Assembly (NCBI GenBank): GCA_030550625.1
Contig: JAUQOZ010000111.1
Location: 1 to 49,025 of the forward strand
Length of the DNA: 49,025 nucleotides
Origin: Chloroflexota bacterium
GTDB taxonomy: Bacteria > Chloroflexota > Chloroflexia > Chloroflexales > Chloroflexaceae
Reading direction: 5' to 3'
The notes below the pieces were generated by a model. It did not search any database. It was given only the letters and a program-made list of their open reading frames with translations, and was not told where the DNA came from. Shown here piece by piece: positions 24,791 through 32,100 of the stretch; within the stretch, counting starts at the first letter, position 1; every line of letters begins with the position of its first letter. A program made the translations under genes and the position numbers.

Positions 24791-25000
24791 ATGGCGACCG
24801 ATGATTCTGATGAACTGATAGCGCAACGGCGCGCTCTGTTGCGTACCGCCTTGCAACGGATTGTCTTGTTGCGCGAGACTGGCCCCAAGAGTGCGGCGTG
24901 GCATCGAGCGCGGGTCAAGACGATGTGGCGGTTGCAGCAACAACTGGCAGATGATGCCGCTGCGTTGCGGCACTCTGAGCAAACCCATGATCGAAGCTAA
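24791..25000 (+). CDS. Small helical protein between MoxR and the membrane fusion protein
   Basis: 69 residues, almost entirely helical and rich in Arg, Gln, Ala and Leu (ELIAQRRALLRTALQRIVLL, then WRLQQQLADDAAALRHSEQ). It starts 15 nt after the MoxR stop. Its 3' end overlaps the start of the next gene by 14 nt, a sign of translational coupling. It could be a coiled-coil adaptor. No family is recognised. Confidence 0.55.
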   Translation: MATDDSDELIAQRRALLRTALQRIVLLRETGPKSAAWHRARVKTMWRLQQQLADDAAALRHSEQTHDRS

Positions 25001-26993
25001 TCTGGCGCGTTGGTTGGCGCAAACTGGTGATACGCTGTACAGCATCGCCTTGGCGCTGGCGCCGGACGAACGGGCAGCGCAGCGGTTGTTACGGCAATGG
25101 GTAGCCGATCTTAGCCGGTGTCCGCCTGCGAGCTGGCAATCTGATGAACTGGCGGCCCGTCTCTACCGGGTGGCAGTCGCCAACTATACCGATCGCCCGT
25201 TGGAACGGCGACCGGCGCCGGCAGCCGCGCCAGTGCTGGGGCCATTGCGGGCGATGCCGTTGCCGCAGCGGATGGCTGTGTTAGCGTATGGCGTGTTGGG
25301 GATGGATAGCGCCCGCTTGGCTAAGATCCTCGGCCAAGAGCCGGCGGATGCGATCCGGACTCTTGAGCAAGCCGTGCAAGCGTTAGCTCCTATCTCGCGC
25401 CATTCGCTGCCGGCGGAGGTGAGCAGTGATGAGTGCGCACCGGTGCGGCAAGCGTTGATTGATCCGGCCCAGCATCTCCGCGCGTTTGAACAGGTGCGGC
25501 GGCATCTGGCCGGGTGCGCGCATTGCCGAATCTTTGAGCGCGAATGGCAAGCGGCGACGCGCGAGCTAACGCTCGTTCTGCGCCGCTATGCGCAAGCTTT
25601 CCCAATGCCTGCGAAGCTGGCCGATCGGTTGCTACACGCAGCAGTGACGCCGCGTCAGCGCATCGCGACAGTTGCGCTGGCAGCGCCGGTGGTGGTGCTG
25701 GCGGCGTTTGTTGTAATCCTCATAGTGCCCGGTATGTTCAGAAATCCGGTGACAGTCGTGGCCACCGGTGCAAACGAACCGGTCGTGCGGGCAGACGATT
25801 TAGTGGCGCGGGCCTTGGCCCATGGCGGCATCCCTGAACCGGAAGGCCCGCCCGTGTGGCAGGCGCGTTACCAAACCCTCTGGTATTTTAACAACCGCAC
25901 CGTCGCCCCGTTGTATGCCGAAATCTGGCACGACCGCGACAATCCGGCCCGCCACCGCTTGCAATTGCGCCACGTTGACGGCGGCGCGCCGTATGAGTTT
26001 CAGCTCGGCGACGGCGAGCGCCGCTTGTATTACGCCCTTGACGGCGCGTATGCACCGGTGCTGTACGGCGACCTGCCGGTGCCGGCGCTGCCAAACGAAC
26101 CGGCGCTGATGGTGAGTGCGGCTGATCCCAGCCAACAGCAAGCCGCATTTGTGGCCCGTCTTACCAGCGGGCCATGGCATATCCCGCCAAATTACTTGCA
26201 CCAAGCTGCGGCAGCGTCTGATCTCCGCTTGCTGGGCCGGCAACGGATCGGTGAGCGGTTGGCGTATATCGTCAGCTTTCGCGGGATCAGTCCGGTTGAT
26301 GTTCCCGCAGATGTTGCCGAACCGGTAACGGTGCTGATGGCGATTGGCGAGACCGATGGTCACGTGCTGAATATCACCGAGTTAATTGGGCCTCCCGGCG
26401 GAACCCAAACCAGCCGGGTGGTGTGGCGGTTGGTCGAATTTAATTGGCTTGTCACCGGCGAGCAGATCCGCGATGCCTTCACCTTCGAGCGAGCATGGAA
26501 CGGGCGGGCGGAAATATCTGGCATGCCGGTGCAGCCGCTCGTCGATCCGGCATGGCCGCTGGTGCGGTTGGGCAACGTGATCGCACCAAGCGAGATCGGG
26601 CGAGTCAGCGACTCGCTCGTATTGCCGGCGACTATCCCTGATGGGATCGAACGGGCGGTCTTCTTAAGCTGGCGTGGTGCACGCATCAATGGCGCCATCT
26701 ATACTGGCGCCGGCAAGCAATTGATTTTCACCTTTGACCGGCTGCCGGGTATCGATAGCGCCATTCCAACCGACGTGATCGGCCCATGGCGGGTACGGAT
26801 CGAGCCAGTGCGCGGGCAACGGTATCGGGTCGCGATTGAGACGAATGCCAACCGGCGGGGGAGTAATGTGCGGCTTGCGCTCGAAGCCACCGGTTTCACC
26901 CTTGCTGAGGTGCGTGCGATCATAGAGTCGTTGCGCCCGCTCTACAGCATTGATTTGCGTGCGCAGGCGGCATGGTTTATCCCCAGACGTTAA
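24987..26993 (+). CDS. Membrane protein fusing a sigma-like region to a zinc anti-sigma domain and a large outer domain
   Basis: 668 residues from the ATG at 24987. Residues 10-65 resemble ECF region 2 (TGDTLYSIALALAPDERAAQ, like LYRLALRLTGD). Residues 88-132 resemble region 4 (MPLPQRMAVLAYGVLGMDSA, then RLAKILGQEPADAIRTLEQA), though degenerate. Residues 173-180 are HLAGCAHC, the HxxxCxxC zinc motif of ZAS anti-sigma factors. A transmembrane helix lies at about 228-249. About 420 residues outside are beta rich with paired-strand motifs (RYQTLWYFNNRTVAPLYAEI). The fusion reading is by motif pattern, not alignment. It probably senses the envelope state. Confidence 0.65.
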   Translation: MIEANLARWLAQTGDTLYSIALALAPDERAAQRLLRQWVADLSRCPPASWQSDELAARLYRVAVANYTDRPLERRPAPAAAPVLGPLRAMPLPQRMAVLAYGVLGMDSARLAKILGQEPADAIRTLEQAVQALAPISRHSLPAEVSSDECAPVRQALIDPAQHLRAFEQVRRHLAGCAHCRIFEREWQAATRELTLVLRRYAQAFPMPAKLADRLLHAAVTPRQRIATVALAAPVVVLAAFVVILIVPGMFRNPVTVVATGANEPVVRADDLVARALAHGGIPEPEGPPVWQARYQTLWYFNNRTVAPLYAEIWHDRDNPARHRLQLRHVDGGAPYEFQLGDGERRLYYALDGAYAPVLYGDLPVPALPNEPALMVSAADPSQQQAAFVARLTSGPWHIPPNYLHQAAAASDLRLLGRQRIGERLAYIVSFRGISPVDVPADVAEPVTVLMAIGETDGHVLNITELIGPPGGTQTSRVVWRLVEFNWLVTGEQIRDAFTFERAWNGRAEISGMPVQPLVDPAWPLVRLGNVIAPSEIGRVSDSLVLPATIPDGIERAVFLSWRGARINGAIYTGAGKQLIFTFDRLPGIDSAIPTDVIGPWRVRIEPVRGQRYRVAIETNANRRGSNVRLALEATGFTLAEVRAIIESLRPLYSIDLRAQAAWFIPRR

Positions 26994-27092: not shown

Positions 27093-28274
27093 ATGGCCAA
27101 AACCAAGCTGAACATACGCAGCCTCTTTTATATCACCCATTGCGACAATCTTCCTTCGATCATACAGCGCGGTATCTTGTCACATGCTCAAGTCGAGGCT
27201 AACGGACTGTCACCGAAACCGGTTTATGATAAGAACATTGTTTTGCGCCGGCGCGACCGACGCACGCCTGACGGTCGCAGCTTGTGGGAATTTGCCAATC
27301 TCTACTTTCAGCCGCGGAATCCGATGCTGTATCGTGTCGTTCAGGAAGCGGGCATCAGGAACGTTGTTGTGATTGGCGTTGATCCAAAAGTGATGGAAAT
27401 ACCGGGATGCTTTGTTTCTGATGGTAATGCCGCTCATTCATTGTCAAACATTTGGCCGTTGGCCGAGGGATTGCAACATCTGGCTGCATTGAGAAAGATT
27501 TGGGATAAGGAATGGTGGCGAGAAGCTGATGGATCAAAGCGCCAGATCATGGCTGAATTGTTAGTGCCGGATGGTATACCACCAGCGTATTTGCAAACAA
27601 TCTATACCGCTGACCACAAAACAGTTGACTACGTTCGCCAACTATTGCCTGATGCGCCAATTGATGTTGTTCCTGAGCCAAATATGTTTTTTCAACCGGA
27701 TTCCTCAAAGCGACTTACCGATACGATCACGTTGGTGGATGGCGATCTGTTCTTTTCTCGTCAGCAAACTCTGACCATTAGCGTCAATACGGTGGGAGTG
27801 ATGGGCAAAGGGTTAGCGTCGCGGGCCAAGTATCAATTTCCTGATGTGTATGTGGTGTATCAAGATGCTTGCCGGAGCAAGCAGTTGCAATTGGGCAAAC
27901 CATATCTCTACCGGCGAGAAGCCTTCATCGATGAAGAGTTAGCTGATGAGCCGGCTTCGCTTGCCAATCCCAACGCCAACAAGTGGTTTTTGCTATTTGC
28001 CACAAAACGGCATTGGCGCGAACCGTCCGATCTTAAAGGCATCGAGCAGGGCTTGCAATGGTTGCAAGATCACTATCAGTCAGAAGGTATTCGCTCATTA
28101 GCGATGCCGGCGCTTGGCTGCGGCTTGGGCGGATTGGATTGGCGTGATGTGGGGCCGCTGATGTGCCGTTATCTTGCCCCGCTGTCGATTCCAGTCGCGA
28201 TCTATTTGCCAAGAGAGAAACCGATTGCCCCAGAGTTGCTAACCCCAGAATTTTTACTTGACAAAGCTATGTAG
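27093..28274 (+). CDS. DarT-type DNA ADP-ribosyltransferase fused to a DarG-like macrodomain
   Basis: 393 residues. Residues 5-205 match DarT (DUF4433): FYITHCDNLPSIIQRGIL with His16, an Arg-rich loop at 52-57, ANLYFQPRNPMLYRV (68-82), SDGNAAH (109-115), and RQIMAELLVPDGIPP with the likely catalytic Glu155. DarT ADP-ribosylates thymidine in single-stranded DNA and blocks replication. Residues 211-375 are a macrodomain of the DarG/TARG1 class: VDGDLFFS, SVNTVGVMGKGLASRAK, FATKRHWREPSDL with the probable catalytic Lys305, and PALGCGLGGLDW. DarG removes the modification. Normally toxin and antitoxin are separate genes; here they are one chain without DarG's C-terminal domain. Both active sites look intact. 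Confidence 0.85.
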   Translation: MAKTKLNIRSLFYITHCDNLPSIIQRGILSHAQVEANGLSPKPVYDKNIVLRRRDRRTPDGRSLWEFANLYFQPRNPMLYRVVQEAGIRNVVVIGVDPKVMEIPGCFVSDGNAAHSLSNIWPLAEGLQHLAALRKIWDKEWWREADGSKRQIMAELLVPDGIPPAYLQTIYTADHKTVDYVRQLLPDAPIDVVPEPNMFFQPDSSKRLTDTITLVDGDLFFSRQQTLTISVNTVGVMGKGLASRAKYQFPDVYVVYQDACRSKQLQLGKPYLYRREAFIDEELADEPASLANPNANKWFLLFATKRHWREPSDLKGIEQGLQWLQDHYQSEGIRSLAMPALGCGLGGLDWRDVGPLMCRYLAPLSIPVAIYLPREKPIAPELLTPEFLLDKAM

Positions 28275-28282: not shown

Positions 28283-28356
28283 ATTGGGGTAAGCAAATGA
28301 GTGAAAATAGCGGTTTATCGCCACCACTGCCTGCATGTACGCGCGTTCCCAACTCG

Positions 28357-28365
28357 TGGTATACT
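28357..28365 (+). promoter_or_regulatory. Extended -10 TGGTATACT before the photolyase operon
   Basis: Identical to the elements at 3278 and 23751, 30 nt before the ATG at 28395. It probably drives the whole run of genes to mutM. Confidence 0.5.
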
Positions 28366-28394
28366 CGAAAGAGAATCTTAACGACGAACCTACA

Positions 28395-29210
28395 ATGCAG
28401 CTTCGTACCGATCTAACAACTCGCGCTGAGCAGGTGGCGTATCTCGCCGGCGCGCTCGACGGCTTGTACGCTGGCCCGGCGACGCCTTCGCCAATCCGCG
28501 GCGGGAGGCGGGCAGCGTTACGCCGGCTGCGCGCGTTTGATGCGCGCGGCTATGCCCGCACCCGGAACGATGTCGCGAAACGCGGCGTTTCCGCCCTCTC
28601 GCCATACCTGCGCCACGGGGTGCTCACGCTGGCCGAGGTGCGCGATTCGATCCTGACCCGGTTTGGCTATACGCCTGATACCGAAAAATTCGTCAATGAG
28701 CTGGCATGGCGTGCATTCTGGCAACTGGTGTATGCCCAGCTCGGCGACCGGATCCAGCACGATCTTGAGCCGGCCAAGCATCGTTCCCGCGCGCCGCGCC
28801 GCCAGTTGCCGCCAGAGGTGGCAGCGGCCAGCACTGGTCTCGTGTGTATCGACGAGGCGTTGCGCGAGCTGTACACGACCGGCTATATGCACAACCATGC
28901 CCGCATGTGGGTGGCCGCCTATCTGCAACACTGGCTCGGCGTGGATTGGCGCGAGGGAGCTGACCTCTTCTACCGCCACCTGCTCGATGGTGATCCGGCC
29001 TCGAACAGCTTGTCGTGGCAGTGGGTCGGCAGCACCTTCAGTCACAAACCGTATATCTTTAACCGCCAAAATGTCGAACGGTTCAGCGGGGGCGCGTTTT
29101 GTGCGCGTTGTCCCCTTGCCGCCGGCGGTTGCCCGTTCGACGATAGCTACGAGAATCTGGCGCTGCGCCTGTTTGGCGTGTCACTAGCGGAACTTGAGGG
29201 GCGGCGATGA
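28395..29210 (+). CDS. Photolyase/cryptochrome FAD-binding half, stand-alone
   Basis: 271 residues that align by eye with only the C-terminal FAD domain of photolyases. GVSALSPYLRHGVL (64-77) and NELAWRAFWQ (101-110, like NELIWREFY) are present. So are TGYMHNHARMWVAAYLQHWL (162-181), DWREG (184-188) and DGDPASNSLSWQWVGST (198-214), which holds the FAD-binding Asp/Asn and electron-transfer Trp region. The TGYPIVD DNA/FAD motif is altered to TGLVCIDEA. Cys151, Cys236, Cys239 and Cys246 (CARCPLAAGGCPF) resemble the four-cysteine [4Fe-4S] pattern of bacterial FeS-photolyases, with a shorter last gap. The missing antenna domain is encoded by the next gene, which overlaps by ATGA. Confidence 0.82.
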   Translation: MQLRTDLTTRAEQVAYLAGALDGLYAGPATPSPIRGGRRAALRRLRAFDARGYARTRNDVAKRGVSALSPYLRHGVLTLAEVRDSILTRFGYTPDTEKFVNELAWRAFWQLVYAQLGDRIQHDLEPAKHRSRAPRRQLPPEVAAASTGLVCIDEALRELYTTGYMHNHARMWVAAYLQHWLGVDWREGADLFYRHLLDGDPASNSLSWQWVGSTFSHKPYIFNRQNVERFSGGAFCARCPLAAGGCPFDDSYENLALRLFGVSLAELEGRR

Positions 29211-29680
29211 GCGGCGCGATCGTGTGGCTCCACGGCGATAGTCTTAGCCCAACCGATCCAGCGCTGCTGGCCAACCCGGTTGCACCGGCGATCTTCGTGT
29301 TTGACGAGCCGTTCTTGGCGGCGGCCCAACTCAGCTTCAAGCGGCTCTTCTTTCTGTACGAATGCGCGCTGGAGGCGATCGCCGGGAGGACGGGCAGCAT
29401 CCGGCGCGGGGTGGTGGTGGAGGAAGTGCGGGCATTTGCCGCCGAGCAGCAGGCGATGGCGGTGCATGTGACGGCGAGCGTGGCGCCGCGTTTCCGGCAG
29501 TATGTGGCCGAATTGCGCGCCGCCGGGCTGCAGGTGGTGGTTCATGAACCGCCAGCGTTTGTGACGTGGCGCGGCGAGCCGCCGCGCCGGTTTAGCGCCT
29601 TCTGGCGGCGGGTCGCCGCTGAGGCGCTGCGCCCAACCGGAACTGGGCCGGTCTTGCCTGCTGAGCACGATGTGGAGTAG
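29207..29680 (+). CDS. Photolyase-like N-terminal alpha/beta domain, stand-alone
   Basis: 157 residues, starting inside the stop of the FAD-domain gene (ATGA). The opening AIVWLHGDSLSPTDPALL matches the start of photolyases (xxVWFRRDLRLxDNPAL) and is followed by AIFVFDEPFL, SFKRLFFLYECALEAI, a VVVEEV strand and QVVVHEPPAF. The Rossmann-like domain normally binds the antenna chromophore at the N terminus of one polypeptide. Here it is a separate protein encoded after the FAD domain. It lacks motifs for a named chromophore. The two products probably assemble into one enzyme, which is inference. Confidence 0.72.
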   Translation: MSGAIVWLHGDSLSPTDPALLANPVAPAIFVFDEPFLAAAQLSFKRLFFLYECALEAIAGRTGSIRRGVVVEEVRAFAAEQQAMAVHVTASVAPRFRQYVAELRAAGLQVVVHEPPAFVTWRGEPPRRFSAFWRRVAAEALRPTGTGPVLPAEHDVE

Positions 29681-29685
29681 GTCGT

Positions 29686-30456
29686 ATGGAATTTCAAGGC
29701 AAAGTCGCCATTGTCACCGGCGGCGCGCAGGGGATCGGGCGGGCAACGGCGTTGGCATTGGCCCGCGAAGGCGCAGCGGTGGCTATTGCCGACCGCGACG
29801 AAGCGGCGACGGCGGCGCTGGTCGCGGGGATCAATGCGTGGGGTGGCCGCGCGCTCGCCGTGATCGCCGATGTCAGCGATGAGGCCGATGCAGCGCGCAT
29901 TGCCAACGAGACGGTGCTGGCGTTTGGCGGGATTGATCTGCTTGTGAATAACGCCGGCATTCAGCAGCCGGGCACGATCGAAAGCACCACCTTGCAATTG
30001 TGGCAAGAGATTATCAACGTCAATCTGACCGGCGTCTTTTTAGTGTCGCGCTTTGTCATGCCGGAACTGCGCCGGCGCGGTGGCGGCGCGATTGTCAATG
30101 TGGCGTCGGTGTACGGCCTGCGCGCCGAAGCGGGTTGGGCTGCGTATGCGGCTTCCAAAGGCGGCGTGATTGCGTTGACGCGAGCGATGGCGCTTGATGG
30201 CGCGCCTGACGGGATTCGGGTCAACTGTGTCTGTCCCGGCTTGATCGATACCTCCCTCTTGCGGGCCAACGCCACTCTCGTTAATGCCCAACGTCCTGAC
30301 GAGGCCTTGCGGGCTTTTGCCCGTCGCACGCCGCTGGGCCGGCTTGGCACTCCCGAAGAGGTGGCCGGGGTCATTTTGTGCCTGCTTAGCCCGACTGCTG
30401 GCTATCTGACTGGGGCGGTGATTACTGCCGATGGCGGCATGGAAGCGCGGTTGTAA
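29686..30456 (+). CDS. Short-chain dehydrogenase/reductase (SDR)
   Basis: 256 residues of the classical SDR family. The NAD(P)-binding motif TGGAQGIG lies at residues 11-18, Asp35 in AIADRD suggests preference for NAD(H), and NNAGI lies at about 87-91. The catalytic Ser is in NVASVYG, and the Tyr and Lys are in YAASK (about 151-155). The PG motif is in NCVCPGLIDT. Substrate is unknown. It lies 5 nt after the photolyase-like gene and 14 nt before moaD, so it belongs to the same transcript. Confidence 0.9.
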   Translation: MEFQGKVAIVTGGAQGIGRATALALAREGAAVAIADRDEAATAALVAGINAWGGRALAVIADVSDEADAARIANETVLAFGGIDLLVNNAGIQQPGTIESTTLQLWQEIINVNLTGVFLVSRFVMPELRRRGGGAIVNVASVYGLRAEAGWAAYAASKGGVIALTRAMALDGAPDGIRVNCVCPGLIDTSLLRANATLVNAQRPDEALRAFARRTPLGRLGTPEEVAGVILCLLSPTAGYLTGAVITADGGMEARL

Positions 30457-30470
30457 CGAGGAGGTGGAGG

Positions 30471-30719
30471 ATGATCACCGTCACCGTGCGGTTTTTTGCC
30501 GGGCATCGCGATATTGTCGGGAAGGCGACCGCGCAGTACACGCTGGCTGAGGGCGCTACCCTCGGCCAGTTGTGGGAGCAGTTGGTGGCTGAATATCCGC
30601 GGCTGGCCGGGTATACCGGACGGCTGCTGTTTGCCGTGAATCAGCAGTTTGGCCAGCCAACCACGGTGTTGGCCGATGGCGATGAGGTCGCCTTCATCCC
30701 GCCGGTCAGCGGTGGGTGA
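30471..30719 (+). CDS. moaD: MoaD/ThiS family sulfur carrier (molybdopterin synthase small subunit)
   Basis: 82 residues with a ubiquitin-like fold. It begins MITVTVRFFAGHRDIVG and ends PPVSGG; the C-terminal Gly-Gly is adenylated and then thiocarboxylated to carry sulfur. Its pairing with moaE 77 nt downstream makes it MoaD rather than ThiS. GAGGAGG precedes the ATG. No other molybdenum cofactor genes are in the window. Confidence 0.9.
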   Translation: MITVTVRFFAGHRDIVGKATAQYTLAEGATLGQLWEQLVAEYPRLAGYTGRLLFAVNQQFGQPTTVLADGDEVAFIPPVSGG

Positions 30720-30796
30720 GGTCTACCGCGGAAGCAACAACGTGCGCATCAATCCGTGTCCGCTGCGTCTCTGCGGTAACACGAGGAGGTCTCAGG

Positions 30797-31210
30797 ATGG
30801 TCGAACCCTTTGTCATCACCACCGAACCGCTCGATCCGGCGCCACTGGTTGCGGCGGTGCAAACGCCAGATGACGGCGCGGTGGTGACGTTTAGCGGCGT
30901 CGTGCGCAATCACTTCGGCGGACGCCCGACGGCGTTTTTGGTCTACGAAGCCTATACCGAGATGGCCGTGCCGGTGTTGCGCCAGATCGCCGATGAGGCA
31001 CGGGCGCGTTGGCCGATCGGGAAGGTGTGCGTCCATCACCGGGTGGGCAAGCTAGAAATCGGCGAGACGGCGGTGCTGGTAGTGGTGGCGGCGCCGCACC
31101 GCGATGCGGCCTTTGCCGCGGCTGCCTACATTATGGATCGGATCAAAGAGATTGCGCCGATTTGGAAGCAGGAACATTGGGCCGACGGCGCGGCTGAGTG
31201 GCGTGAATAG
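30797..31210 (+). CDS. moaE: Molybdopterin synthase catalytic subunit MoaE
   Basis: 137 residues, typical of MoaE. Markers are GAVVTFSGVVRNHFGGR, VYEAYTEMA, VCVHHRVGKLEIGE and MDRIKEIAPIWKQEHW, with the conserved lysines of the active site. Together with MoaD it converts cyclic pyranopterin monophosphate to molybdopterin. The ATG at 30797 follows GAGGAGGTCT. It sits between moaD and mutM in the same orientation. Confidence 0.93.
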   Translation: MVEPFVITTEPLDPAPLVAAVQTPDDGAVVTFSGVVRNHFGGRPTAFLVYEAYTEMAVPVLRQIADEARARWPIGKVCVHHRVGKLEIGETAVLVVVAAPHRDAAFAAAAYIMDRIKEIAPIWKQEHWADGAAEWRE

Positions 31211-31221
31211 GTGAGACAGCG

Positions 31222-32100
31222 ATGCCCGAGTTACCTGAAGTCGAGACGGTGGCCCGTTCGCTGGAAGCGCAATTAGTGGGCCGCACCATTATCGGGCTAG
31301 CAAAGCTAGATTGGCCGCGGATGCTCACGCCGCCGGCGCCGGATTTTGCCGCCTTGGTATCAGGGCGCAGGATCGAAGCGATCGGGAGGCGGGCAAAGTG
31401 GCTGTTGCTGACGCTCGATGGCGGGTGGACGCTGGCAATTCATCTGCGCATGTCTGGCCATCTGCTAGTGGCCGAACCGGCCGCCGCCGATGCGCCGCAC
31501 GTCCATTTTGCCCTCGACCTCGACAATGGCCGGCGCTTGATCTTTGATGACCAGCGCAAGTTTGGCCGGGTTCATCTGCTCGACCCGCAGGGGTTGGCGA
31601 TGCTTGACGCAGCCCATGGCCCTGAACCATTGGCAGATGAGTTTACGCCAGAGGTGCTGGCCGAGCGGCTCCGCGACCGACGTGCGCCGATTAAAGCGCT
31701 CTTGCTCGATCAACGTCTGATCGCTGGTATCGGCAATATCTACGCCAACGAAGCGCTCTGGTTGGCCCGCATCCATCCGCTCACGCCGGGAGGGACGTTG
31801 GCGGCAGAACACATCGCTGCCTTACACCGTGCGATTCGAGTAGTGTTGGCTGAAGCAATTGCCAATCAAGGCAGCTCATTGCGCAACTATCGGGATGGTT
31901 ACGGTCGCCGCGGCAGCCAACAAGAGCATTTTAATGTTTACGATCGCGAGGGCGAACCGTGCCCGCGTTGCCAGACGCCAGTTGAGCGAATTGTTGTGGC
32001 GCAAAGAAGTACCTATTTTTGCCCAACGTGCCAAATATGGATGCATGATCCCTCTCCAATAAGTACAATAGAGAAGCAGGAAGTGGGGAATAGGGGATAG
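31222..32100 (+). CDS. mutM: Formamidopyrimidine-DNA glycosylase
   Basis: 292 residues. The N terminus PELPEVETV supplies the catalytic Pro and Glu after removal of Met. RRAKWLL carries the DNA-contacting Lys, FDDQRKFGRV follows, and helix-two-turn-helix text is in LIAGIGNIYANEALW. A zinc finger CPRC...CPTC lies at about 249-272. The enzyme excises 8-oxoguanine and formamidopyrimidines. After the finger the protein continues for about 20 residues (ISTIEKQEVGNRG). That end is encoded by a GGGGAATAGGGGATAG-type intergenic repeat, so the tail was probably acquired by insertion. Confidence 0.95.
   Translation: MPELPEVETVARSLEAQLVGRTIIGLAKLDWPRMLTPPAPDFAALVSGRRIEAIGRRAKWLLLTLDGGWTLAIHLRMSGHLLVAEPAAADAPHVHFALDLDNGRRLIFDDQRKFGRVHLLDPQGLAMLDAAHGPEPLADEFTPEVLAERLRDRRAPIKALLLDQRLIAGIGNIYANEALWLARIHPLTPGGTLAAEHIAALHRAIRVVLAEAIANQGSSLRNYRDGYGRRGSQQEHFNVYDREGEPCPRCQTPVERIVVAQRSTYFCPTCQIWMHDPSPISTIEKQEVGNRG

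Follow-up and report, generated by a model that had tools for sequence, protein, structure and literature searches.

Two overlapping genes in a 49,025-nucleotide stretch of a Chloroflexaceae genome (contig JAUQOZ010000111.1 of assembly GCA_030550625.1; the window, along whose full length all positions are counted) are likely to encode the two subunits of a single iron-sulfur (Fe-S) photolyase of the SPL/NewPHL family, of the type known as Phr4/Phr5 in marine picocyanobacteria. The first would be the catalytic half that binds flavin adenine dinucleotide (FAD), and the second the photolyase alpha/beta domain, supplied as a separate polypeptide. The case is built on the homology of the halves, the invariance of four cysteines, the conservation of the active site, co-occurrence, purifying selection and separate coding; from these we infer the docking of the halves, the cluster, the chemistry, the lesion type and translational coupling. 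The elements concerned are the following:

28395..29210, forward strand: first gene, FAD-binding catalytic half of 271 residues (PF03441, 92 bits; conserved start MQLRTD; class I chains of the PDB matched with up to 114 bits by its profile)
29207..29680, forward strand: second gene, photolyase alpha/beta (Rossmann-like) half of 157 residues (PF00875, E 1.4e-4; hhalign, E 1.6e-16; AlphaFold2 and Foldseek)
29207..29210, forward strand: ATGA overlap, holding the start of the second gene and the stop of the first (sequence)
29196..29201, forward strand: GAGGGG, a putative ribosome-binding site 5 bases ahead of the second start (sequence)
28845..28847, forward strand: codon of C171, first putative [4Fe-4S] ligand (invariant in the four-cysteine clade; aligned with an FeS-BCP-type protein)
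29100..29132, forward strand: codons of C256, C259 and C266 in a C-x2-C-x6-C motif, the remaining putative [4Fe-4S] ligands (invariant in the same clade; FeS-BCP alignment)

The open reading frames (ORFs) and their ATGA overlap, FAD half first, are found in the sequence as an earlier note on this DNA had described them, and the start it gave for the first gene, 28395, is the one conserved among relatives, in that MQLRTD also opens the FAD half in other Chloroflexus species. An in-frame start upstream at 28335 would give a first protein of 291 residues (ORF 28335-29210, forward strand), and it is from this start that the cysteines are numbered. Overlaps of the same four bases occur in pairs from Chloroflexus, Chloroploca, Acidobacteriota and Deinococcus QL22.

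A profile search of each half, as that note had proposed, bears out both identities. The first protein matches FAD_binding_7 (PF03441, E 3.7e-26) with residues 119-242 on positions 1-127 of 203 in the Pfam profile and has no N-terminal alpha/beta domain, as judged from its ORF and Pfam. The second matches DNA_photolyase (PF00875) with 22.3 bits (Pfam cut-off 26.6 bits), and 18 of its 63 aligned relatives match this family on their own, with a best E of 3.8e-6. A phmmer search of the second half against PDB sequences gave no meaningful match, and the profile of its alignment reached photolyases with E 0.013-0.2 only. Because direct sequence searches are too weak, its placement rests on profile-profile comparison and on a fold search. 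In hhalign the profile of the split second halves matches the domain at the C-terminus of single-chain relatives over 129 columns (98.7%), and the AlphaFold2 model, in which strands and helices alternate (mean local confidence, pLDDT, 90; predicted TM score, pTM, 0.81), finds photolyase and cryptochrome alpha/beta domains first among PDB chains in Foldseek (E 1.2e-4, probability 1.00); 31 chains reach E <= 0.001, and 29 of them are photolyases or cryptochromes. By profile comparison and predicted fold, the second gene encodes a remote member of the photolyase alpha/beta domain; that it is unrelated to the photolyase N-terminal domain is excluded by the profile comparison, the AlphaFold2 fold and the Foldseek result. 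No NCBIfam model fits the pair, all matches lying far under the cut-offs, PADLOC matched neither half, and PF04244 (DPRP) is absent from both proteins in Pfam at E <= 1. In phage records the only photolyase-like matches have 32-35% identity to the FAD half.

A collection-wide search recovered the split form in Chloroflexota, Acidobacteriota and Verrucomicrobiota. Single-chain homologues, roughly 360-450 residues long and also with the FAD domain first, came from Methylophilaceae, Rhodobacteraceae-type bacteria, bacteria of the candidate phyla radiation (CPR) and others. Deinococcus has both forms, QL22 being split with a 4-base overlap and three others fused. Across these relatives the alpha/beta domain is encoded after the FAD domain, either as its own gene or fused to it. 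NewPHL/SPL is presented as an inverted-topology photolyase family in two sources (PMC13274461, PMC9649867), and by sequence and tree the pair is the two-gene form of these inverted short photolyases (SPL/NewPHL), within their iron-sulfur subgroup. The earlier note had read it as a circular-permutation-like split. That it is a one-off split of an ordinary photolyase is not supported: the inverted order is shared by, and normal for, the whole SPL/NewPHL family, and a split inverted Fe-S photolyase was published in 2022 (mBio) as phr4/phr5, with a fused form phr6, from marine Synechococcus/Cyanobium (PMC9426592). The survey of other genomes suggested in the same note found the pair to be widespread, with both halves in 29 of 61 genomes of the order. 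The outgroup of the family tree sits on very long branches, which limits what the tree can say on whether the split or the fused form is ancestral, and the states of rows L066 and L069, both at contig ends, and of L054, whose frame is broken, are uncertain. As a side observation, FeS-BCP-type (DPRP) photolyase genes often adjoin inverted photolyase genes (L079, L080, L085, L089, L095, L126), and at L126 a partial ORF with an FeS-BCP-like motif overlaps the FAD half at its start.

Overlooked in the earlier note was the four-cysteine Fe-S motif of the FAD half. C171, C256, C259 and C266 occur together in every complete split FAD half examined and in the single-chain forms of Methylophilaceae and Deinococcus, and the full set is missing from other single-chain clades. 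The profile of the four-cysteine clade aligns these positions with the cysteines of a DPRP/FeS-BCP-type protein (L051), and the FAD-half profile runs through the cysteine region in PhrB-type PDB chains, whereas its class I matches stop before it. C349, C437, C440 and C453 serve as the cluster ligands in Caulobacter (PMC12082625). We conclude from these alignments that the FAD half probably carries a [4Fe-4S] cluster.

For the lesion type the FAD half was aligned with the photolyase of A. nidulans, whose residue numbers are used here. The contacts to the cyclobutane pyrimidine dimer (CPD), E283, W286, N349, M353 and W392, and the tryptophan relay W314, W367 and W390 are the residues commonly listed for class I enzymes. 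Equivalents of all five contacts are kept, as are W367 and W390 of the relay, and among the flavin-site residues, listed after PMC9426592, Y228, S241, L243, S244, R287, N349, D380, D382 and N386 are retained. With moderate confidence, the active-site residues favour CPD repair. The genome contains three other photolyase-type genes, namely those on C70 (479 residues, carrying PF00875 and PF03441) and C280 (509 residues), which are conventional photolyases, and a 542-residue frame with a DPRP domain on C237, a DPRP-type (6-4) photolyase candidate; the split pair is thus additional to the conventional set. It is possible, though we think it unlikely, that the same two-chain enzyme is instead specific for (6-4) photoproducts, as the authors of the Synechococcus study predicted for Phr4/Phr5 from the Fe-S cysteines (PMC9426592). 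The four cysteines are shared with prokaryotic (6-4) photolyases, by structure the FAD half is matched best by Fe-S (6-4) photolyases (Z 15-18, in a ranking whose VIA-align rows are essentially confined to that half), and the Synechococcus pair is more important after UV-C (PMC9426592). Against this stand the retained class I CPD contacts, a profile score of 114 bits to class I chains versus 38 bits to FeS-BCP, the candidate already present on C237, and the description of the SPL class as CPD repair enzymes in PMC9649867.

In the CPD photolyase that we favour, the first subunit would bind FAD and probably the [4Fe-4S] cluster and would carry the lesion-binding site. The second, corresponding to the alpha/beta domain that follows the FAD domain in fused relatives and precedes it in ordinary photolyases, would dock on the first and close the FAD pocket; an antenna role for it is conceivable but unsupported. 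Coupled translation across the ATGA would produce the two subunits next to each other in Chloroflexus, and blue light would excite FADH- for the repair of ultraviolet (UV) lesions, most likely CPDs. We also consider, as a rather doubtful extension, that the photolyase is constitutively two-subunit and assembles in trans. In relatives with unlinked halves, or with another gene between them, the alpha/beta subunit would then be an unattached and perhaps exchangeable lid through which the retention of FAD or access to DNA is controlled. If this is true, subunit association could regulate activity, which is impossible for a single-chain photolyase.

Several observations weigh against a two-subunit photolyase of this kind. 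On its own the second half scores under the Pfam cut-off for PF00875; at the flavin site V, F, Y and S replace T240, W280, W346 and A385; the middle tryptophan of the relay, W314, is R; the three other photolyase-type genes leave the need for the pair in doubt; and in E. coli the Synechococcus pair was not significantly more protective in light than in the dark (PMC9426592). The replaced relay tryptophan and the other photolyase-type genes would also suit a cryptochrome-like blue-light receptor that has lost DNA repair. However, the pair retains the equivalents of all five lesion contacts and of N386, the Asn adjacent to flavin N5, and Synechococcus phr4/phr5 protects E. coli from UV-C (PMC9426592); we regard a receptor as very unlikely.

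Most probably the enzyme is a complex of two chains. Within the genus Chloroflexus the overlap is mostly ATGA. Most relatives have a start-to-start phase of 2, calculated from coordinates, with phase 0 in L014, L021 and L027 and phase 1 in L016. In L014, itself a Chloroflexus, the halves lie 63 bases apart in the same frame, behind an in-frame stop. An acyltransferase-like gene (PF01553, 307-342 residues) stands on the same strand between the halves in a single-contig genome (L129) and in its relatives L026 and L030. In genus g15 the halves are found on different contigs, well inside them and with no partner in the stretches read; those of G031 are on C40 (48,637 bases) and C132 (27,638 bases) and those of G021 on C129 (24,029 bases) and C110 (27,631 bases), both being draft genomes in which binning error is a caveat on the separate contigs. 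Programmed frameshifting that turns the two ORFs into a single Phr6-like chain, a possibility raised for Synechococcus phr4/phr5, would agree with the existence of fused relatives and with the usual arrangement of the halves, a constant -1 phase and a short overlap. Yet the relatives show all three frame relations, and L014 would have both a stop and a gap to overcome. Because the phase varies, a gene intervenes (L026, L030, L129) and the contigs differ (G021, G031), frameshift fusion is rejected as a general mechanism in favour of two polypeptides, and we hold it to be highly improbable. Modelled with AlphaFold2 from an alignment that included 50 single-chain homologues, the read-through fusion of L014 reaches a pTM of 0.85, its low confidence being nearly confined to the linker, and this agrees with docking of the two halves. 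This model and the single-chain relatives of the same order speak for the earlier expectation that the halves reassemble. Of the coupled translation proposed with it, the overlap is consistent with coupling, but coupling by overlap is not essential, given that some relatives have a gene between the halves or carry them on separate contigs.

The two halves also co-occur. Of 61 genomes in the order, 29 have both, 30 have neither and two have only the second half (one as a broken fragment, the other as a match of 35% identity), whereas none has the FAD half by itself (Fisher p 2e-15 by genome). By genus the counts for both, FAD half only, second half only and neither are 11, 0, 2 and 16 (p 2e-6), both p values being uncorrected for kinship. 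Within Chloroflexus the ratio of nonsynonymous to synonymous substitution rates (dN/dS) is 0.04-0.13 in both halves, which indicates strong purifying selection. It had been foreseen that an intact photolyase elsewhere could show the pair to be decayed; other photolyases do exist in the genome, but the pair is not decayed. That it is a decaying, redundant photolyase between fusion states is hardly credible and is rejected on dN/dS, for although one Chloroflexus genome (G003) has a broken FAD half and a few draft genomes (G020, G025) show only remnants, the other seven Chloroflexus genomes keep open frames and the 29 genomes retain both halves together. In G003, a single-contig genome, the FAD half (L128, G003:C1:2565200-2567000) is split into two overlapping ORFs and the second half is whole; the break is either a frameshift or a sequencing error.

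Directly upstream of the pair, 27093-28274 (forward strand) is a single ORF of 393 residues in which DarT and DarG domains are fused in one chain. A DarT-type single-stranded DNA ADP-ribosyltransferase (PF14487) occupies residues 12-200 and a DarG-type macro domain (PF01661; PADLOC DarG, 212-377) is also present, so that this is a DarT-DarG toxin-antitoxin pair in one polypeptide. Downstream, 29686-32100 (forward strand) encodes a short-chain dehydrogenase, a ThiS/MoaD-like protein, MoaE and formamidopyrimidine-DNA glycosylase (Fpg/MutM), the last being another DNA-repair gene near the photolyase pair. Farther upstream, 24861-26993 (forward strand) is a 710-residue ORF without a Pfam match at E <= 0.001, whose N-terminal part, by eye, may recall a sigma factor with a zinc-finger anti-sigma motif.

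Taken together, the Chloroflexales series of overlap, spacing, intervening gene and separate contigs is a natural experiment that favours two chains on the picocyanobacterial question, and the inverted Fe-S split photolyase is spread over several phyla. Such pairs are candidates for structural work on how a separately supplied alpha/beta domain closes the FAD site, and on the role of an Fe-S cluster in a photolyase with a CPD-type active site.

Among known systems, class I CPD photolyases (A. nidulans, E. coli) are the best sequence matches of the FAD half and share its lesion-contact residues, but they are single chains with an N-terminal alpha/beta (PF00875) domain, a full C-terminal PF03441 domain, a longer C-terminal part and no Fe-S cysteines. 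The FeS-BCP or prokaryotic (6-4) photolyases (PhrB, CryB, Cc(6-4)PL) have four collinear cysteines and the helical domain fold in common with the pair; they differ in carrying a DPRP (PF04244) N-terminal domain in the same chain, and the FAD half is nearer to class I by sequence. NewPHL/SPL proteins (Emmerich 2020, Xu 2021), as described in PMC13274461, PMC9649867 and PMC9426592, resemble the pair in their N-terminal FAD domain and C-terminal alpha/beta-type domain and belong to the same family by sequence and tree, whereas they are single chains and many members are without the four cysteines. Closest is Phr4/Phr5, the loss of whose phr4 leads to poorer survival of Synechococcus after UV-C, and for which the authors left heterodimer versus +1 frameshift undecided; the main text does not mention Chloroflexus (PMC9426592). 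Like our pair it has the FAD gene first and the photolyase-domain gene second, fused relatives, other photolyases in the genome and four Fe-S cysteines at near-equal positions (C169/C254/C257/C263 there, C171/C256/C259/C266 here). Unlike it, our pair comes from a different phylum, shows the ATGA overlap in Chloroflexus and has relatives with spacing, an intervening gene or different contigs. Judged by anatomy and by the cysteine positions given in PMC9426592, the Chloroflexus pair is of the same kind as Phr4/Phr5. The kind itself is already known; the new contributions are its occurrence in Chloroflexota, Acidobacteriota, Verrucomicrobiota and Deinococcus and evidence from natural variation in favour of two chains.
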